In this document: positions 14,021-60,774 of the stretch, piece after piece | How positions within the stretch are numbered: the first letter of the stretch is position 1 | Layout: the number at the start of each line of letters is the position of its first letter | Assembly: GCA_017999985.1 (NCBI GenBank) | Contig: JAGNKU010000001.1 | Coordinates: 301,276-365,275, forward strand | Direction of reading: 5' to 3' | Origin: Phycisphaerae bacterium | GTDB taxonomy: Bacteria > Planctomycetota > Phycisphaerae > UBA1845 > Fen-1342 | Length of the DNA stretch: 64,000 nt | Notes under the pieces: model-generated | Seen by the model: the letters and a program-made list of their open reading frames with translations, nothing else | Databases searched by the model: none | What the model was told of the DNA's origin: nothing | Position numbers and translations under genes: made by a program

Positions 14021-15352
14021 CTACCCTTTGTCGCCGGCCGCCGCCTCGTCTTCCCCAGCGTCCTCGGCCGGCGGCGGCACCTCGTCCGGCTTCTCTTCAG
14101 GCAGTTTTTCCAGCCGCTCCTTGGCGAGTCGCGCGGCGGGGGCATCGCCGTGTGCATCCACGATGCGCTGGTAGAACTCCCGCGCCTTGCCGTACAGCTC
14201 GACCTTCGCAAACCGGTCGGCGATGTCCAGCCAGCGGTCTGCTTCCTGTTCGCTGCTGACTTTCTGGATGGTCTGCTGCACTTCCGCGTCGCCATCCAGA
14301 CGCTCGAGGGCCGTGCTGGCCGCCCGCGCGGCCTCCGTGTCCGGGTACTCCTCGGTCACCGAACGGTACAGGCGCAGGGCCTCTAGGTAGCGCTTCGCGT
14401 TCTCATGCTCGGCGGCCTGGTCGTTCACCATTTCGCCCTTGGCGTTTTCCATCGCGGCGAGCACTTTCGGCTTGACTTTGCCGTCGCCCATCAGCCGCCC
14501 GCGCTCCTCATCCGCCTGGGAGCCCAGCTCGGTCCCGGCCATGCGCACACTCAGGTCCGCCAGAATCTTGCAGGCCTCGTCGAACTTATCCGCCCGGGCC
14601 GCGGCCCTCGCTTCCTCGAGCCATTGCCGCGCGGCCTCCTCGATCTTCTTCATCAGCTCGCCGGCGTCCTTCGCGGCGTTGCCCTCGGCCAGCTTGTTCA
14701 CCCCCTGCGCCAGCGTATAGGCGCGGCCATACTGCTTCTCCTTCAGCGCCGCGCGCGCCCGCTCCAGCCGTTTCTTCAGGCTGGTGTTGTCGGCGCCGGC
14801 GGGGGGCGTCTTGCGCATCTGCGCTCGAATGTGCCCCTCCAGGTCGTCGTCCGGGTGGAAGCGGGTGGCCAGCCGCCCGGCCGTGTCGAGCAGGTACACC
14901 TTGGGGAACGAGGACACCTCGTACCGGTCCTCCGTATCCACGCCGTACCCGACCACGAACTTGATCTCCTTGCCCTTCACGACGTCCTCGGCCGCCTCCT
15001 TCTTCTGCGGCGTCATGCCAACCACCACCACGCCCAGCGGCTGGAACTTCTTGTGGATTTCGTTGACCTTGGCGATCGAGTCCGCGGATGAATCGTCCGT
15101 GCGGAAAAAGAACAGCACGACAATCCGGTCGCGGAAGCGGTCCAGCCGGGGCGTGCCCTCGATGTTGGTCCACCCGTCCGCGCTCAGCTCCGGCGCGCGC
15201 TCGCCGAGCGCAACGGTGACCGGACCCTCGGGGGCCTTCTCTTCTTCCTTGTCCTGCTCGCGGCGCTGCTCACCGCGCCGCCCCTGTGCCAGCGCCGCGC
15301 TGCTCACCAGCAACACCAGCATTAATCCGAATGCACGCCATGGACGTCGCAT
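14021..15352 (-). CDS. exported redoxin-like/TPR protein lacking CxxC
   Basis: This 443-residue exported protein has a signal peptide (MRRPWRAF, then LMLVLLVSSAALAQG), a charged linker, a thioredoxin-fold domain at about residues 60-190 of the TlpA/AhpC-TSA type, and then helical TPR-like repeats to an acidic tail. At the place where TlpA-like proteins carry a CxxC active site the sequence reads FFFRTDDSSADS, with no cysteine, so it is probably not a disulfide oxidoreductase. The ATG at 15352 has AAGGAG seven bases upstream. Upstream in-frame starts would place about 45 non-exported residues before the signal. Confidence 0.8.
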   Translation of the reverse strand: MRRPWRAFGLMLVLLVSSAALAQGRRGEQRREQDKEEEKAPEGPVTVALGERAPELSADGWTNIEGTPRLDRFRDRIVVLFFFRTDDSSADSIAKVNEIHKKFQPLGVVVVGMTPQKKEAAEDVVKGKEIKFVVGYGVDTEDRYEVSSFPKVYLLDTAGRLATRFHPDDDLEGHIRAQMRKTPPAGADNTSLKKRLERARAALKEKQYGRAYTLAQGVNKLAEGNAAKDAGELMKKIEEAARQWLEEARAAARADKFDEACKILADLSVRMAGTELGSQADEERGRLMGDGKVKPKVLAAMENAKGEMVNDQAAEHENAKRYLEALRLYRSVTEEYPDTEAARAASTALERLDGDAEVQQTIQKVSSEQEADRWLDIADRFAKVELYGKAREFYQRIVDAHGDAPAARLAKERLEKLPEEKPDEVPPPAEDAGEDEAAAGDKG

Positions 15353-15448
15353 CGCCGCACTCCTTGGTCCCAGCCCAAGCGGTACCATGACCCTCCCGTA
15401 ACAGTCTAGCGGCCCCCGCCCGCGCTGCCAACCGCGCCCGCCGGCGCG

Positions 15449-15477
15449 TTGCCCGGGCCGCCCCTCGCTCCTATGAT
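15449..15477 (+). promoter_or_regulatory. promoter of the SelW-like gene
   Basis: TTGCCC (15449-15454), a 17-base spacer and TATGAT (15472-15477) form a good sigma-70-type promoter. The predicted start is near 15484 and the ATG is at 15513. Confidence 0.6.
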
Positions 15478-15512
15478 CGAAAACCAACGGTGTCGCTTAC
15501 CGGAGTCGCACG

Positions 15513-15731
15513 ATGAAAATCAGCATCACCTACTGCTCGCAGTGAAACTACCTGCCCCGCGCCGCCGGTCTGGCGGCCGCCATCCAGCAAGCCCTTGGCA
15601 TCGAGCCGCAGTTGATCGCGGGATCCGGCGGAATCTTTGACGTGAAGGTCGATGGCCGCCTCGTTTTCAGCAAGCATGAAACTGGACGTTTCCCGGACGA
15701 CGCCGAAGTGCTCGCGGCCCTCGGCACCTGA
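15513..15731 (+). CDS. SelW-like selenoprotein (Rdx family), UGA read as Sec
   Basis: This is a 72-residue thioredoxin-fold protein of the SelW/SelT/SelH (Rdx) family, if the TGA at 15543-15545 is read as selenocysteine. The N terminus is MKISITYCSQ-U-NYLPRAA, with U at residue 11 in a C-x-x-U motif exactly where the family has its CxxU/CxxC redox site. Past the UGA the frame continues with family features: IFDVKVDGRLVFSK and ETGRFPDDAEVLAAL. The true stop is TGA at 15729. GGAG lies seven bases before the ATG, and a promoter and a SECIS-type hairpin are present. Conventional ORF finding splits it. It ends two bases before the convergent zinc-ribbon gene. The role is probably a thiol/selenol redox function; partners are unknown. 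Confidence 0.88.
15543..15577 (+). promoter_or_regulatory. bacterial SECIS element
   Basis: Starting at the in-frame UGA (15543), a hairpin with arms GCCGCC (15561-15566) and GGCGGC (15572-15577) presents the apical loop GGUCU. The loop begins 21 bases after the UGA. The E. coli fdhF SECIS also presents GGUCU at its tip, at a similar distance, where SelB binds. The match is by eye. Confidence 0.75.
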
Positions 15732-15733
15732 GT

Positions 15734-16873
15734 CTATTCGTCCGCATTGCTGCCGTGCGCGAACGCCAGTCCGCTCGAGCCAACCTTGTACGCGGTACTC
15801 AAGGCCAACAGGATGAAAACGACATCCATGAAGCCGAAGAGCGCCCAGAACATCTCCCCCACGGCCTCCGCCGGGCCGTCGTCGGCGGCAATATCCTCAC
15901 CGGCGGCGAGTTCGACGTCCGCGCGGTCCGGTGTCGGCTGCTCGGCTGCCGGTCCCTGGTCCCCGGCGGCCACCTGCGCGGCGGCTTCATCGTCGGCCCG
16001 GTAGCGCTCGATCGCGCGCTCCAGCTCGGCTTTCTTCATGGCCTCCACCCGCCGCTCGGCTGTCCGCCCGGCGCGCTCCCACTGCGCATCGGTGGCCTGC
16101 TCGGGGTCAACGCCCTGCTCCGTCAGCACCTCCGCTGCAACGTGGCGCATCACATACGCCTTCTTCAGTTCAGTGTTGCTGGTGTCCCCCGTGAGAATGG
16201 CAGCCAACACGACCACCGCGAGCAGTATCTTGGCGACGATGATCGCGAGCAGCGCCACCGTCGCCGCGACCACGCCCGGCAGCACACCACTCATGCGCGA
16301 GCCCAGCGCCATGCCAAACCCGGTGATCAGCCCGATGCCCCACGCAACGTAGCCCACTTCGTAGCCCGTCTTGTACGCGATGAAGCACCACAGCGCCGCC
16401 CCGATCGCGGCCCCCACCAGGCTCAGCACGCAGCCAAGCACGAACGTCCCCGCCCATTGGGCTGCCTTGCTTGCCACCGCGGCGGCGCCCGGGCCCAGCG
16501 CGGCCGCTTTCATGATGCGCCCCGTCTGGGCGTTGTACCCGCACGATGTACACAGCACGGCCCCGCCGACCAGCGTCGCGCCGCAATGTGGACACGGGCG
16601 CGGCATGCCGCCCCCCGCCGGCAGCCCCGCCGCCGGCCCGGTCGCGGCGGCCGCGTGCTCCTTCGCGGCCAGATCGTCCAGCCAGCCCGCGCTCTCATCC
16701 GTGGCGGGTGACGCCGTGGGCGCGCGGGCCGGCGCCGCCGCGGCGTGCGGCACGGTGAACTTCTGATGGCACTTCGGGCATTGGCCTGTGCGTCCCGCGG
16801 CCTGCGCCGCGACTTTCAGTTTCGCGCCGCACGCGCACCGCACGACGATTCGATCGACGCCCACATCCGCCAT
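15734..16873 (-). CDS. double zinc-ribbon membrane protein
   Basis: This 379-residue protein has one ribbon at the N terminus (VRCACGAKLKV then GQCPKCHQKF, residues about 12-40), an Ala/Pro linker, a second ribbon near residue 93 (CPHCGATL, then LCTSCGYNAQTG), three to four hydrophobic helices at about 135-235, a charged coiled segment, and a final hydrophobic helix. The first ribbon resembles the MJ0042-type finger common in planctomycetes. Function is unknown. The start is firm: GGAGGAG precedes the ATG. It converges on the SelW-like gene with a 2-base gap. Confidence 0.8.
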   Translation of the reverse strand: MADVGVDRIVVRCACGAKLKVAAQAAGRTGQCPKCHQKFTVPHAAAAPARAPTASPATDESAGWLDDLAAKEHAAAATGPAAGLPAGGGMPRPCPHCGATLVGGAVLCTSCGYNAQTGRIMKAAALGPGAAAVASKAAQWAGTFVLGCVLSLVGAAIGAALWCFIAYKTGYEVGYVAWGIGLITGFGMALGSRMSGVLPGVVAATVALLAIIVAKILLAVVVLAAILTGDTSNTELKKAYVMRHVAAEVLTEQGVDPEQATDAQWERAGRTAERRVEAMKKAELERAIERYRADDEAAAQVAAGDQGPAAEQPTPDRADVELAAGEDIAADDGPAEAVGEMFWALFGFMDVVFILLALSTAYKVGSSGLAFAHGSNADE

Positions 16874-44294: not shown

Positions 44295-45863
44295 CTACTC
44301 GGCCAGTGCCTGGCGCAGGGCCGTGATTAGCGCGACCAGCGATTCGCGGGGGTGCAGCGCGTAGAAGTACTCACGGTCGAGTGCGATCCGGTCCAGCCGC
44401 CACTGGCTCTCCAGCGTCTGGACGCGCTGGTCGTATTCCGCGACGCGCCATGGATCGGTCTCCAGCATTTGCTCATTGACGCGGCGCAGCTCGCGAAACA
44501 GCACGCGCCGGCCGGCCCGGTCGCGCGGCTGGCGGGCGCGCCGCTCCGCGGACAGACGCACCAGCTCGCTCCGTTGGTCCAGCAGTTCGACCGGTACCGC
44601 GCGGAGGTGACGCTGCGGGTTGTAGCGGAGGTCGCGGCTCCGCTGGCGCGCGGCAGCCAAATCGGCGGCCCGGATACCGTGCCGGGGCAACGGCAGGTGC
44701 AGGGTGGCACTGACACAACACGCGGGGCCCGCAGCGACGCCCAGCCAGGCGCCGACGAAATCCTCCATGATTTCGTCGTACTTCGCGCCGCCAATGCCGT
44801 GGATGAACAGGTCGCCGAGGAACAGCCGGGCGAACGCGGAGAGCGCCAGGGCCCGCGGCCGAATGCGCCAGCCCGCGCGCTCAAGCGGCCAGGCCTCCGC
44901 GTGGGTCGCAAACCGCGCCAGCGCTTCGCACGCCAAGGTGTCAACGACCTCCTGGTCGGCACGCAGCGTCAGCCGCGCGCCCTGCCTGTGGACAAACATC
45001 CGGCGGCGCGGCTCACCGGCCCGCCCCAGCCAGAACGGCAACTCCACTGCCTCGTCGTGCACCACCAGCGGCGGCACCGGCCGGCCGCGCGCGCGGACCT
45101 TGTGGCGCGCACGGTACGCCGCCTGCGCCGCGTTGTAGTGCTCGATCACACGGTGCGCGTCCAGCAACAGGCTCGCCACGAACGCCCGGAAGGCCGGCGT
45201 CGCGCACAGGTGCGACATGCGCAACTCGCGGACCCCGTCCAGGCCCAGCGCCGCCTCCGCCGCCGCGTGCCCACGCGCCAGCGCGTCACAGTACAGCGGG
45301 TGCGCGTCCGGCGTCGTCAGCCACGCCCGGGCGAACGTCGGCAACAGCGAGTGCTGCCCGAACTCGTGCAGCGAGGTGACGCCGGCGAAGAACTGCAGCC
45401 AGTCCGCGCGCGAGACCCGCGGCTGCGACTCGAAATCCCGCTGCGGGTCACAGCCGGGGATTGACACGTCGACCCGCCGCAGGCCTCGGGACGTCGTCTG
45501 CGGCAACGCCAGTTGCGCGGTCTTCGGCACATCCGAATCAACCGTGAGAAACGCGGCCTGCCCGCCCAGGCGCGCCGCCAGCGCGTGCGCCGCGATCGTC
45601 TTTGCCAGCACGCCGGCGTGAAAGAACTCCGCCTGGTGCCCCGTCAGGATCAGCGGGCCGGACAGCCCCAGCTCCGCCCGCAACGCGGCGCGACCGGCCC
45701 CCAGCGTCGTGTCCAGCAGCGGCACCGCCGCGAGCCGCGCGGCCGGCGGCTCCGCCAGCAGCGCGTGCAACTGCGCCGCCGGCGGCTCCACCAGCACCGC
45801 CAAGTGTTCCGGCGGCGTCTGCAAACGGTCGTAACGAATCAGTCGTGTTGCGGCAAACGACAT
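44295..45863 (-). CDS. conserved-type hypothetical protein, BshC-like segment
   Basis: This 522-residue cytoplasmic-looking protein has no signal or membrane helix. The segment GPLILTGHQAEFFHAGVLAK resembles the N-terminal BshC block (TGQQxGLFxGPLYTxxKA) and is followed by LTVDSDVPKT. Later blocks, such as DLFIHGIGGAKYDEIMEDF, are strongly motif-like but not known to me. A bacillithiol-type role is a guess only. It is last in the rnpA-glycosyltransferase operon and overlaps the upstream GT2 gene by 25 bases, consistent with coupled translation. Confidence 0.65.
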   Translation of the reverse strand: MSFAATRLIRYDRLQTPPEHLAVLVEPPAAQLHALLAEPPAARLAAVPLLDTTLGAGRAALRAELGLSGPLILTGHQAEFFHAGVLAKTIAAHALAARLGGQAAFLTVDSDVPKTAQLALPQTTSRGLRRVDVSIPGCDPQRDFESQPRVSRADWLQFFAGVTSLHEFGQHSLLPTFARAWLTTPDAHPLYCDALARGHAAAEAALGLDGVRELRMSHLCATPAFRAFVASLLLDAHRVIEHYNAAQAAYRARHKVRARGRPVPPLVVHDEAVELPFWLGRAGEPRRRMFVHRQGARLTLRADQEVVDTLACEALARFATHAEAWPLERAGWRIRPRALALSAFARLFLGDLFIHGIGGAKYDEIMEDFVGAWLGVAAGPACCVSATLHLPLPRHGIRAADLAAARQRSRDLRYNPQRHLRAVPVELLDQRSELVRLSAERRARQPRDRAGRRVLFRELRRVNEQMLETDPWRVAEYDQRVQTLESQWRLDRIALDREYFYALHPRESLVALITALRQALAE

Positions 45864-46612
45864 ACGGCCAACGTGTCTGCGTGCCACGGCAACCCGATCC
45901 GGCAGGGGCACTGCGCCCCCGCCCGCCCGAGTTCGCGGACGAAGACCGTCAGGTAGTGCTGCAAGCGGGCAGCCGGGTCGTCCAGGGTCCCGCCGAACTC
46001 GCGGCTCTGGTCGCGATAAATCCGCCGGACCGGCAGCTCGCGGATGCGCAGCCCGGCACGCGCACACTGTACCCAGAATTGCAGCGGAAAGGCATAGCCC
46101 GGCTCATCGAGCCGCAGACGCCGCAGCGCCGCCACCCGGTGGGCCTTGAACCCGCAGAACGAGTCCGTCAGCGCCAGCCCCAGCACCTGGCGCAGGACGC
46201 GGTTGATCGTGAAATTGATCTGCTGCCGGTCCGGCGGGGCCGCGTCGTCATCCGGCCGCGCCTGCAGGTAGCGCGAGCCGCTGATGATGTCCGCGCCGCC
46301 CGCCCCGGCCTGGGCGATGAACTCGGGAATCTGCGCCGGCTCGTGCTGCTCGTCGCAGTCGATAGTGATGACCCAGTCGTACCGGTGCCGGTCCGCGAAC
46401 GCAAATGCGTCGATCAAGCTCCGGCCGTACCCGCGATTCTCGCGGTGCGTGATGACGCGCACGCCCGGCTCCAGCCGCAGCAGCGCCGGCGTCGCGTCGG
46501 TCGAGCCGTCATCCACGACCAGGATATCGGAGGTGTACCGGCGGACCGCCGTCAGCACGCCCGGCAGGTAACGCTCCTCGTTGTACACCGGGATGGCTAC
46601 GAGAAATCTCAT
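45839..46612 (-). CDS. glycosyltransferase family 2, DPM-like
   Basis: This 257-residue GT-A enzyme starts MRFLVAIPVYNEERYLPGVL. VVDDGSTDAT and ITIDCDEQHEPAQ supply the nucleotide and metal aspartates, and DSFCGFKAHRVAALRRL is a typical polyprenyl-phosphate sugar synthase block. No C-terminal membrane helices are seen. It may transfer a sugar to a lipid carrier. The ATG at 46612 has GGAG eight bases upstream and is preferred over an in-frame GTG at 46621. It is in the same operon as a GT28-type enzyme. Confidence 0.85.
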   Translation of the reverse strand: MRFLVAIPVYNEERYLPGVLTAVRRYTSDILVVDDGSTDATPALLRLEPGVRVITHRENRGYGRSLIDAFAFADRHRYDWVITIDCDEQHEPAQIPEFIAQAGAGGADIISGSRYLQARPDDDAAPPDRQQINFTINRVLRQVLGLALTDSFCGFKAHRVAALRRLRLDEPGYAFPLQFWVQCARAGLRIRELPVRRIYRDQSREFGGTLDDPAARLQHYLTVFVRELGRAGAQCPCRIGLPWHADTLAVCRLPQHD

Positions 46613-46690
46613 CCACCGCACTCCACAAGCCGGCCCGCGGCCGCAACGCCCTGCGACCCACAGTGGATTGTTGCCGGCCGCTGGCCATTG

Positions 46691-47836
46691 TCAAACGGCG
46701 TGTGGAACGGGGAGCAGACGCAGGGCGTCGGCGACGATGTCGCGCGCCGCGTGCGGGCGGGCGATCGCCCGGGCCGCGTGCTGCAGGCCCCGCAGGCGGG
46801 CGGTGTCCGCCAGCAGCTTGCCTACCCGGTAACCGAGCAGGCGGGGATTGTTGACCTTGATCGCAGCGCCGTGCTCGAGCAGGTAGTCGCTGTTCCGCGT
46901 CTCCTGGCCAGGGATCGGGTTGACGATGACCAGCGGCAGCCCGCACGCGAGCGCTTCGGCCACGGTCAGCCCCCCAGGCTTCGTCACCACGACATCGGCC
47001 GCCTGCATCCACTCGTGCATCTTGTCGGTGAAGCCGACCACGCGCACGCGGGGTGGCCCCGCCTGAGCCTGTTCGGCGAGCCGCGCGCGGAGCGCCTCGT
47101 TGCGGCCAGCGATCACCACCACCTGCGCATCCGTGGGCATGTGCATCAGCTCGTGCAGCAATTCGCCGATCGGCCCAACGCCGAACCCGCCGCACAGGAG
47201 CAACACGACCGGTCGGCCGGCGTCGAGCCCGCAGCGCTGCCGCGCCGCGTTCACGCCCAGCTCCGCATCGAAACCGGGGCGCACCGGAATGCCGGTCACC
47301 AGGACCTGCTCCGGCCGCACGCCGGCGGTGACCAGGTACGCCTTGCCATCCTCGGTCGCGGTGTAGTAGCGCTCCGTCGGCGACTGCACCCAGATACGGT
47401 GCGTCTCGTAGTCGGTCGTGATCGTGACCTGCGGGCACTCGAATTGACCCGCGCGGCGCATCTGGCCGACGATTTCCGCCGGCAGGTAGTGCGTGTTCAG
47501 GATCAGCCGCGGCCGCCGCTGCAGCACGAATCGCACCGTCGGCAGCTTGTTGAAGTTCTGGATCCAGATACGGACCGAGTTCTGGATGTAGCCGTTGGGC
47601 CGATCCATCGCATCGTAGAGCCAGCCCATCGCCGCTGGGGCGTGCCGCACCAACCCGAGGTAGCCCCCGGCGTACAGCCGGCGAAATACCACATTCGAGA
47701 TCGAGAGCACGTCGAGCACTTCGACCGCGACGCCCGGCGCCTGCGCGCGCAGCTCGTGGGCGAGGGCCTCCGCGGCAATCAGGTGCCCGGCGCCGGCGGA
47801 TGCGGTGAGAACCAGGATGGGACCCTGTGTGGCCAA
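46691..47836 (-). CDS. MGDG-synthase/UgtP-type glycosyltransferase (GT28)
   Basis: This 381-residue GT-B enzyme resembles diacylglycerol glycosyltransferases and MurG. ILVLTASAGAGHLIAAEAL is the N-terminal acceptor-side loop with the GAGH motif. VVVTKPGGLTVAEALACGLP is the C-terminal nucleotide-sugar site. It probably makes a glycolipid at the inner membrane. The start is TTG at 47836 with GGAG nine bases upstream; no ATG lies near the conserved N terminus. It is 31 bases downstream of rnpA. Confidence 0.83.
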   Translation of the reverse strand: MATQGPILVLTASAGAGHLIAAEALAHELRAQAPGVAVEVLDVLSISNVVFRRLYAGGYLGLVRHAPAAMGWLYDAMDRPNGYIQNSVRIWIQNFNKLPTVRFVLQRRPRLILNTHYLPAEIVGQMRRAGQFECPQVTITTDYETHRIWVQSPTERYYTATEDGKAYLVTAGVRPEQVLVTGIPVRPGFDAELGVNAARQRCGLDAGRPVVLLLCGGFGVGPIGELLHELMHMPTDAQVVVIAGRNEALRARLAEQAQAGPPRVRVVGFTDKMHEWMQAADVVVTKPGGLTVAEALACGLPLVIVNPIPGQETRNSDYLLEHGAAIKVNNPRLLGYRVGKLLADTARLRGLQHAARAIARPHAARDIVADALRLLPVPHAV

Positions 47837-59367: not shown

Positions 59368-59685
59368 GGCTTGAACTCCTGCGTATGCAGGCGGCTGTGC
59401 GCTGGCATCGCCGCCAACGGCCCGTCCAAGCGATCGTAGCCCGCCGCCGGGCCGGGTTCCACTCCGGATGTCACCGGCGTGGCGCGGGGCATCCTGACTT
59501 CTTACTTCTGACTTCACCACCGTGATTCCGGCCATCGGTCGCCCGCCTGCACTGCGGCCGTTTCCGCCTGCGGGCGGTTGTGGTATCCTATTCGCTCGGG
59601 CGGGCACGCGCTGGGCTGGTCGCACGGTCGCGATCGGACGCCCGCCGCGGCGGCCCCGACCCGCGGAACCTGGGAAAACACAGAC
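59368..59685. other. intergenic region before gcvT, with a short tandem repeat
   Basis: No gene is supported. A 3 x 7-bp repeat, CTGACTT, CTTACTT, CTGACTT, lies at 59494-59514. A weak promoter-like pair (TTTCCG at 59561, TATCCT at 59584, spacer 17) could serve gcvT. No glycine riboswitch is recognisable. Confidence 0.4.
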
Positions 59686-60774
59686 ATGCTGCAAACGCCG
59701 CTCAACACTTATCACCGCGACTGTCACGCCCGCCTCGTGGATTTCGCCGGCTGGGAAATGCCCGTCATCTACACGAGCATCATCGAAGAGCACAACTACT
59801 GCCGCCAGCACTGCGCCCTGTTCGACGTCTCGCACATGGGCCGCGTCGAGTTCCGCGGGCCCGACGCCGAGAAGCTCCTGGAGCGGCTCAACACGCGCAA
59901 CATCGCCGCCGCGACCCCCGGCATGTGCCGTTACAGCCACATGTGCAAAGACGACGGTGGCATTCTGGACGACGTGATCGTCTCGAAGTTCGAGGACCAC
60001 TTCCTCGTCGTCTGCAACGCGTCCAACCGCGAGAAGCTGCTCGGCTGGTGGGAGCGGCAGCGGCAGGGCTTCAACGTCGAGATCGTCGACCGCACGTTCG
60101 AGACCGCGATGGTCGCGCTGCAGGGCCCCGAAGCGCTGGAGACGATGGGCCAGCTCCTGCCGTTCCCGCTCGATGACCTGAAGCGCTACCGCTTCAAGAC
60201 CGGCAACGTCATGGGCGTGGAGTACTTCGTCGCCCGCAGCGGCTACACCGGCGAGGACGGCGTCGAGATCATCATCCCCGGCAACCTGGCCCTGATGGCG
60301 GTGCGCATGCTGATCGAGCGCGCGGAGCAGCTCGGCCGGCCGATCAAGCCCGCCGGCCTGGGCGCCCGCGACACGCTGCGGCTCGAAGCCGGCATGCCGC
60401 TCTACGGCCACGAGCTGACCGAGGACTGGGACTCGCTCACCGCCGGCCAGGAATGGGCCGTGGACCTGACCAAGGACTTCATCGGCGCCACCGTGCTGAA
60501 GCGCATCAAGGCCGAAGGCCCGCGCCGCAAGATCACCGGCTTCGAGCTCGACGGCAAGCGCATCGCCCGCCAGGGCGCGCCAATCCTCCAGGCCGGCCAG
60601 GAAGTTGGCGTCGTCACCAGCGGCACGCAAAGCCCGACGCTGGACAAGAACATCGCCATGGGCCTGCTGCGGGCCGACCTGGCGGTACCCGGCACGCGGC
60701 TGGAGATCGACATCCGCGGCAACCGCAGCCCGGCCAAGGTGACCCCGCTCCCGTTCTACAAGCTGAAGAAGTAG
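59686..60774 (+). CDS. gcvT: aminomethyltransferase (glycine cleavage T protein)
   Basis: GcvT transfers the methylene of the glycine-derived aminomethyl group to tetrahydrofolate. The 362 residues match the family: VDFAGWEMPVIYTS and LFDVSHMGRVEFRGPDAEKL at the N terminus, the RSGYTGEDGVEIIIP and ARDTLRLEAGMPLYGHEL motifs in the centre, and TSGTQSPTLDKNIAMGLL at the C terminus. No gcvH or gcvP is adjacent, so the remaining subunits must be elsewhere. The ATG follows a GGGA run; a weak promoter lies upstream. Confidence 0.93.
   Translation: MLQTPLNTYHRDCHARLVDFAGWEMPVIYTSIIEEHNYCRQHCALFDVSHMGRVEFRGPDAEKLLERLNTRNIAAATPGMCRYSHMCKDDGGILDDVIVSKFEDHFLVVCNASNREKLLGWWERQRQGFNVEIVDRTFETAMVALQGPEALETMGQLLPFPLDDLKRYRFKTGNVMGVEYFVARSGYTGEDGVEIIIPGNLALMAVRMLIERAEQLGRPIKPAGLGARDTLRLEAGMPLYGHELTEDWDSLTAGQEWAVDLTKDFIGATVLKRIKAEGPRRKITGFELDGKRIARQGAPILQAGQEVGVVTSGTQSPTLDKNIAMGLLRADLAVPGTRLEIDIRGNRSPAKVTPLPFYKLKK

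Follow-up and report, generated by a model that had tools for sequence, protein, structure and literature searches.

Our analysis of a 64,000 nucleotide window of Phycisphaerae bacterium DNA (contig JAGNKU010000001.1; "the window" below means this whole stretch) shows a short gene that, with very high probability, encodes a SelW-like selenoprotein of the Rdx family; we call it selW here, and its features are collected in Table 1. The frame begins with an ATG and nine further codons, has a TGA as codon 11, and then runs through 61 sense codons to a second TGA; its translation is MKISITYCSQ-U-NYLPRAAGLAAAIQQALGIEPQLIAGSGGIFDVKVDGRLVFSKHETGRFPDDAEVLAALGT, in which no signal peptide was seen. A preliminary description of this DNA had reported a TGA at the redox position of a C-x-x-U motif followed by 61 in-frame codons and a second TGA, and this is what we read from the sequence. 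Candidates for the ribosome site and promoter that it also reported are present as well. The former is a Shine-Dalgarno-like motif at a spacing of 7 nt, and a purine-rich motif resembling GGAG lies upstream of the selW ATG in most relatives; the latter is a sigma-70-like candidate that agrees with the consensus at 9 of 12 positions (mean in shuffles of the region, 0.0). The gene lies between a divergent gene at 14021-15370 (-) and a convergent gene at 15734-16873, whose stop is 2 bases past the selW stop. The in-frame pieces of selW are absent from the table-11 list of open reading frames (≥50 amino acids), and three spurious ORFs overlap it (15449-15640 (+), 15471-15677 (-) and 15548-15727 (-)); ordinary gene finders would truncate the gene at its in-frame UGA. 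Read-through of the second TGA was also considered and is rejected, because the relatives terminate there with TAA, TAG or TGA.

Table 1. Features of the selW locus (positions are those of the window)
Feature	Position	Strand	Basis
Sigma-70-like promoter candidate, TTGCCC-17-TATGAT	15449..15477	+	Consensus match alone
Shine-Dalgarno-like GGAG, 7 nt 5' of the ATG	15502..15505	+	Read from sequence
SelW-like selenoprotein gene (very probable), 72 amino acids plus stop	15513..15731	+	Pfam Rdx, NCBIfam, predicted fold
In-frame UGA, predicted Sec 11 of C-x-x-U	15543..15545	+	Codon 11; TGA conserved across homologues
Bacterial SECIS hairpin, 6 bp, loop GGUCU	15561..15577	+	Fold, covariation, codon fixation, bSECIS constraints
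Terminal TGA, real stop	15729..15731	+	Homologues end at near-equal length with TAA, TAG or TGA

The selW product matches the Pfam Rdx family (PF10262) with E = 7.1e-20 and 71.4 bits (cut-off 22.6) when cysteine is placed at the UGA. The UGA was also masked as X, so that the answer was not already built into the query, and the match is then still 64.4 bits (E = 1.1e-17); residues 12-72 alone match with E = 3.1e-12. Since Rdx is found both with the UGA masked and with the downstream part by itself, the reading frame codes for protein before as well as after the UGA. Two NCBIfam models are likewise matched, TIGR02174 at 56.0 bits (cut-off 34.2) and NF041051 (SelTWH_Campy) at 88.4 bits (cut-off 88). 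An AlphaFold2 model built with window and locus sequences (pLDDT 93.6) has the SelW-like thioredoxin-like fold, its top PDB matches being SelW-related proteins, and it places the motif C8-S-Q-U11 after the first strand (strand 3-8, helix from 14). At E ≤ 0.001 the model has 23 PDB matches, which comprise SelW-related proteins from bacteria as well as MIEN1 and mouse SelW; the relatives by sequence with solved structures, 2fa8 among them, are SelW-related proteins of the Cys type. Rdx homologues thus align across the TGA by profile, by sequence and by fold, as the preliminary description had anticipated, with UGA at this position in the relatives and Cys in the solved Rdx proteins.

A hairpin of sequence GCCGCC-GGUCU-GGCGGC lies at +19 to +35 from the T of the UGA, with a predicted energy of -11.6 kcal/mol and with its 5-nt loop spaced 21 nt from the UGA. 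The constraints on bacterial SECIS elements (bSECIS) published in a recent review are a stem of 4-16 bp, a loop of 3-9 nt with a G within its first two positions (mostly of the form N1-G-[G/U]-N-N2 in which N1 and N2 are paired), a UGA spacing of 16-37 nt and a minimum free energy of at most -7.5 kcal/mol (PMC13188914); the selW hairpin agrees with all of them. Over 45 aligned sequences the stem positions pair in 91.7% of cases, and in four of the six pairs both partners have changed. The covariation score of the stem, 0.178, compares with 0.036 for shuffles and with a maximum of 0.062 when the stem is slid along the alignment. The loop consensus, (A/G)GU(U/C)U, is reflected in the codon usage at position 19: Ser19 is AGT in all 34 genes that have it, whereas AGT makes up 6 of the 149 other Ser codons of the same genes (4%; p = 4e-31). 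All 10 genes with Gly19 use GGT there, compared with 17% elsewhere; two genes (L029 and L035) are exceptions with another residue at codon 19. Because the sequences are related, the p-values of the codon and covariation counts overstate their independence. No Rfam match was found at the hairpin at gathering or relaxed thresholds. Folding a longer stretch of 48 nt gives z = -0.7, which is not significant, and shuffles often fold almost as well; this reflects the high G+C content of the region, and the comparison between sequences is the appropriate test here. The hairpin is a conserved, covarying SECIS-type element, and the one claimed in the preliminary description is supported by the published constraints, by covariation and by codon fixation.

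The gene and its UGA are widespread among the relatives. In a survey of 101 genomes (its own and 100 related ones from its family and order) a SelW gene is present in 83, every one of which has TGA at codon 11 in at least one copy. TGA also occupies codon 11 in all 46 genes compared, which span many genera and several phyla, and in 16 of 16 public-genome loci (labelled Planctomycetota, Myxococcota, Gemmatimonadetes, Gammaproteobacteria, Zixiibacteriota and Desulfurivibrionaceae), and the protein downstream of the UGA is conserved among the homologues. The sole tblastn match without the UGA is a second SelW copy (L069, G076:C676:11390-11608), in which Arg and Asp replace Cys and Sec; its codon 19 is CGC, so the AGT/GGT loop codon was lost along with the UGA, and this copy is a natural control for the SECIS. 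One SelW gene of the same order (L058, genome G049) is identical to that of an uncultured planctomycete contig (L025), which makes Planctomycetota the most likely phylum of the window.

The preliminary description held that the gene implies a selenocysteine machinery elsewhere in the chromosome, and selA, selB, selD and tRNA-Sec are all found in the genome (98.65% complete) above curated cut-offs: selB at 301 bits (325.6 with its neighbour; cut-off 242), selA at 526.5 bits with its neighbour (cut-off 267.9), selD at 360 bits (cut-off 125) and tRNA-Sec at 68.8 (cut-off 47), the last also called by ARAGORN as tRNA-SeC with anticodon TCA. The selD gene (L020:1501-2424 (-), G000:C12) is a selenoprotein gene itself, with one in-frame TGA (...YASCGG-U-AGK...) at the place of the known catalytic Cys/Sec of SelD. 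Among surveyed genomes that are at least 90% complete, 57 have SelW together with an over-cut-off selB, none has SelW without it, eight have selB alone and four have neither (Fisher p = 6e-4); the eight with selB and without SelW make this a one-way link. The six genomes with SelW and without an over-cut-off selB are all at most 84% complete.

Could codon 11 be something other than a selenocysteine codon? A single base change (TGC or TGT to TGA) turns a Cys codon into TGA, and other bacteria commonly have Rdx proteins of the Cys type, so one might suppose that selW is a Cys-type gene disabled by a nonsense mutation. Such a pseudogene would not, however, share its TGA with all of the 46 genes compared and with all 83 genomes that have the gene, nor would the protein after the TGA be conserved and the SECIS hairpin maintained, and we regard this as extremely improbable. 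That the UGA is read as another residue (Trp, for example, through suppression or a changed code), or that the two parts are separate peptides, is very improbable too, if somewhat less so. An in-frame UGA does not by itself tell which residue is inserted, but UGA is the stop codon of selW itself and of many relatives, its position here is that of the redox Cys/Sec of the Rdx family, the Sec machinery is complete, and Sec decoding accounts for the fixed hairpin loop; a separate downstream peptide would be without the first strand of the fold.

There is, finally, practically no chance that the open frame is fortuitous and that one of the overlapping ORFs is the real gene. Long spurious ORFs do occur in G+C-rich DNA, as the three at this locus illustrate, but a chance frame would not be conserved in 82 relatives, nor would it match Rdx at E = 1.1e-17 once the UGA is masked. 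The Rdx match, the complete Sec machinery, the conserved UGA and the covarying hairpin together make it nearly certain, judging from these sequence comparisons, that selenocysteine is inserted at UGA 11.

In the mechanism that we propose, SelB loaded with Sec-tRNA(Sec) would bind the hairpin directly 3' of the UGA and selenocysteine would be delivered at codon 11, after which the ribosome would proceed to the second TGA, the usual C-terminus of the family, and terminate there. The product would be a small cytosolic thioredoxin-like protein with Cys8-x-x-Sec11 at the end of strand 1, before helix 1, and most likely a selenol/thiol oxidoreductase that acts through a reversible Se-S bond; redox catalysis is inferred.

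The divergent gene upstream of selW encodes a protein with a TlpA/AhpC-like domain, a TPR-like region and a signal-peptide-like start, and 12 relatives within the same family likewise have a gene of this type divergently upstream of SelW. This is modest evidence for a shared function or regulation of the pair. The place of its C-x-x-C site reads FFFRTDD and similar, without cysteine, and so the protein is not an obvious redox partner of SelW. It is conceivable, if rather unlikely, that SelW and this probably secreted protein are regulated together and act in a single, as yet undescribed, process of stress response or redox chemistry. A search of the window by codon usage for further genes interrupted by UGA gave a few candidates, and Pfam searches of six supported read-through in none; what they matched are ordinary domains, namely glycosyltransferases at 45839-47719 and GcvT at 59479-60774. 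At 45839-47719 (-) an MGDG-synthase-like region is followed head to tail by a GT2 region in the same frame with one TGA between them, and this looks like two ordinary genes.

A 2006 survey of bacterial genomes recorded ten SelW-like selenoproteins and found their Cys homologues to be scarce or absent in organisms that use Sec (PMC1794560, Zhang et al. 2006), a pattern also seen among the relatives here. SelW-like proteins were the most frequent selenoprotein family in the Global Ocean Sampling data, with 427 sequences (PMC2398784). The window protein shares with them the Rdx-type domain, the C-x-x-U motif, its shortness, the UGA followed by a bSECIS and the Sec machinery (PMC1794560, PMC2398784); we found no architectural difference, and the host alone differs. 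SelW genes completely missed by annotation have been reported for Epsilonproteobacteria, whose SelW likewise has an apical SECIS hairpin of 5/6 bp with an invariant loop G (PMC4607533); the bacterial group is different, and the window protein barely exceeds the NF041051 cut-off. The fold is shared by Agrobacterium Atu0228 (2fa8; TM ~0.9), but this protein and further PDB entries for Cys-type Rdx proteins have C-x-x-C in place of C-x-x-U and are somewhat longer. Mouse SelW (2npb) belongs to the same fold class (Foldseek E = 9.9e-4) and is distant in sequence (21%); its motif is C-x-x-U, as in the window protein, and its SECIS is a eukaryotic one in the 3' UTR, whereas that of the window gene lies just 3' of the UGA. 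Our literature search found Planctomycetes, selenoproteins and SelW named together nowhere beyond the 2006 survey, which then covered one or two Planctomycetes genomes (PMC1794560).

The identification of selW is thus correct but ordinary, as the bacterial SelW family and its missed annotation are already known. It is a clean example of a real gene that is shortened by annotation with the standard code table. The practical gain lies in improved annotation and in a SECIS consensus that is ready for use; the biology holds no surprise, and selenocysteine is used in SelW by the majority of the genomes searched from one bacterial order (83 of 101).
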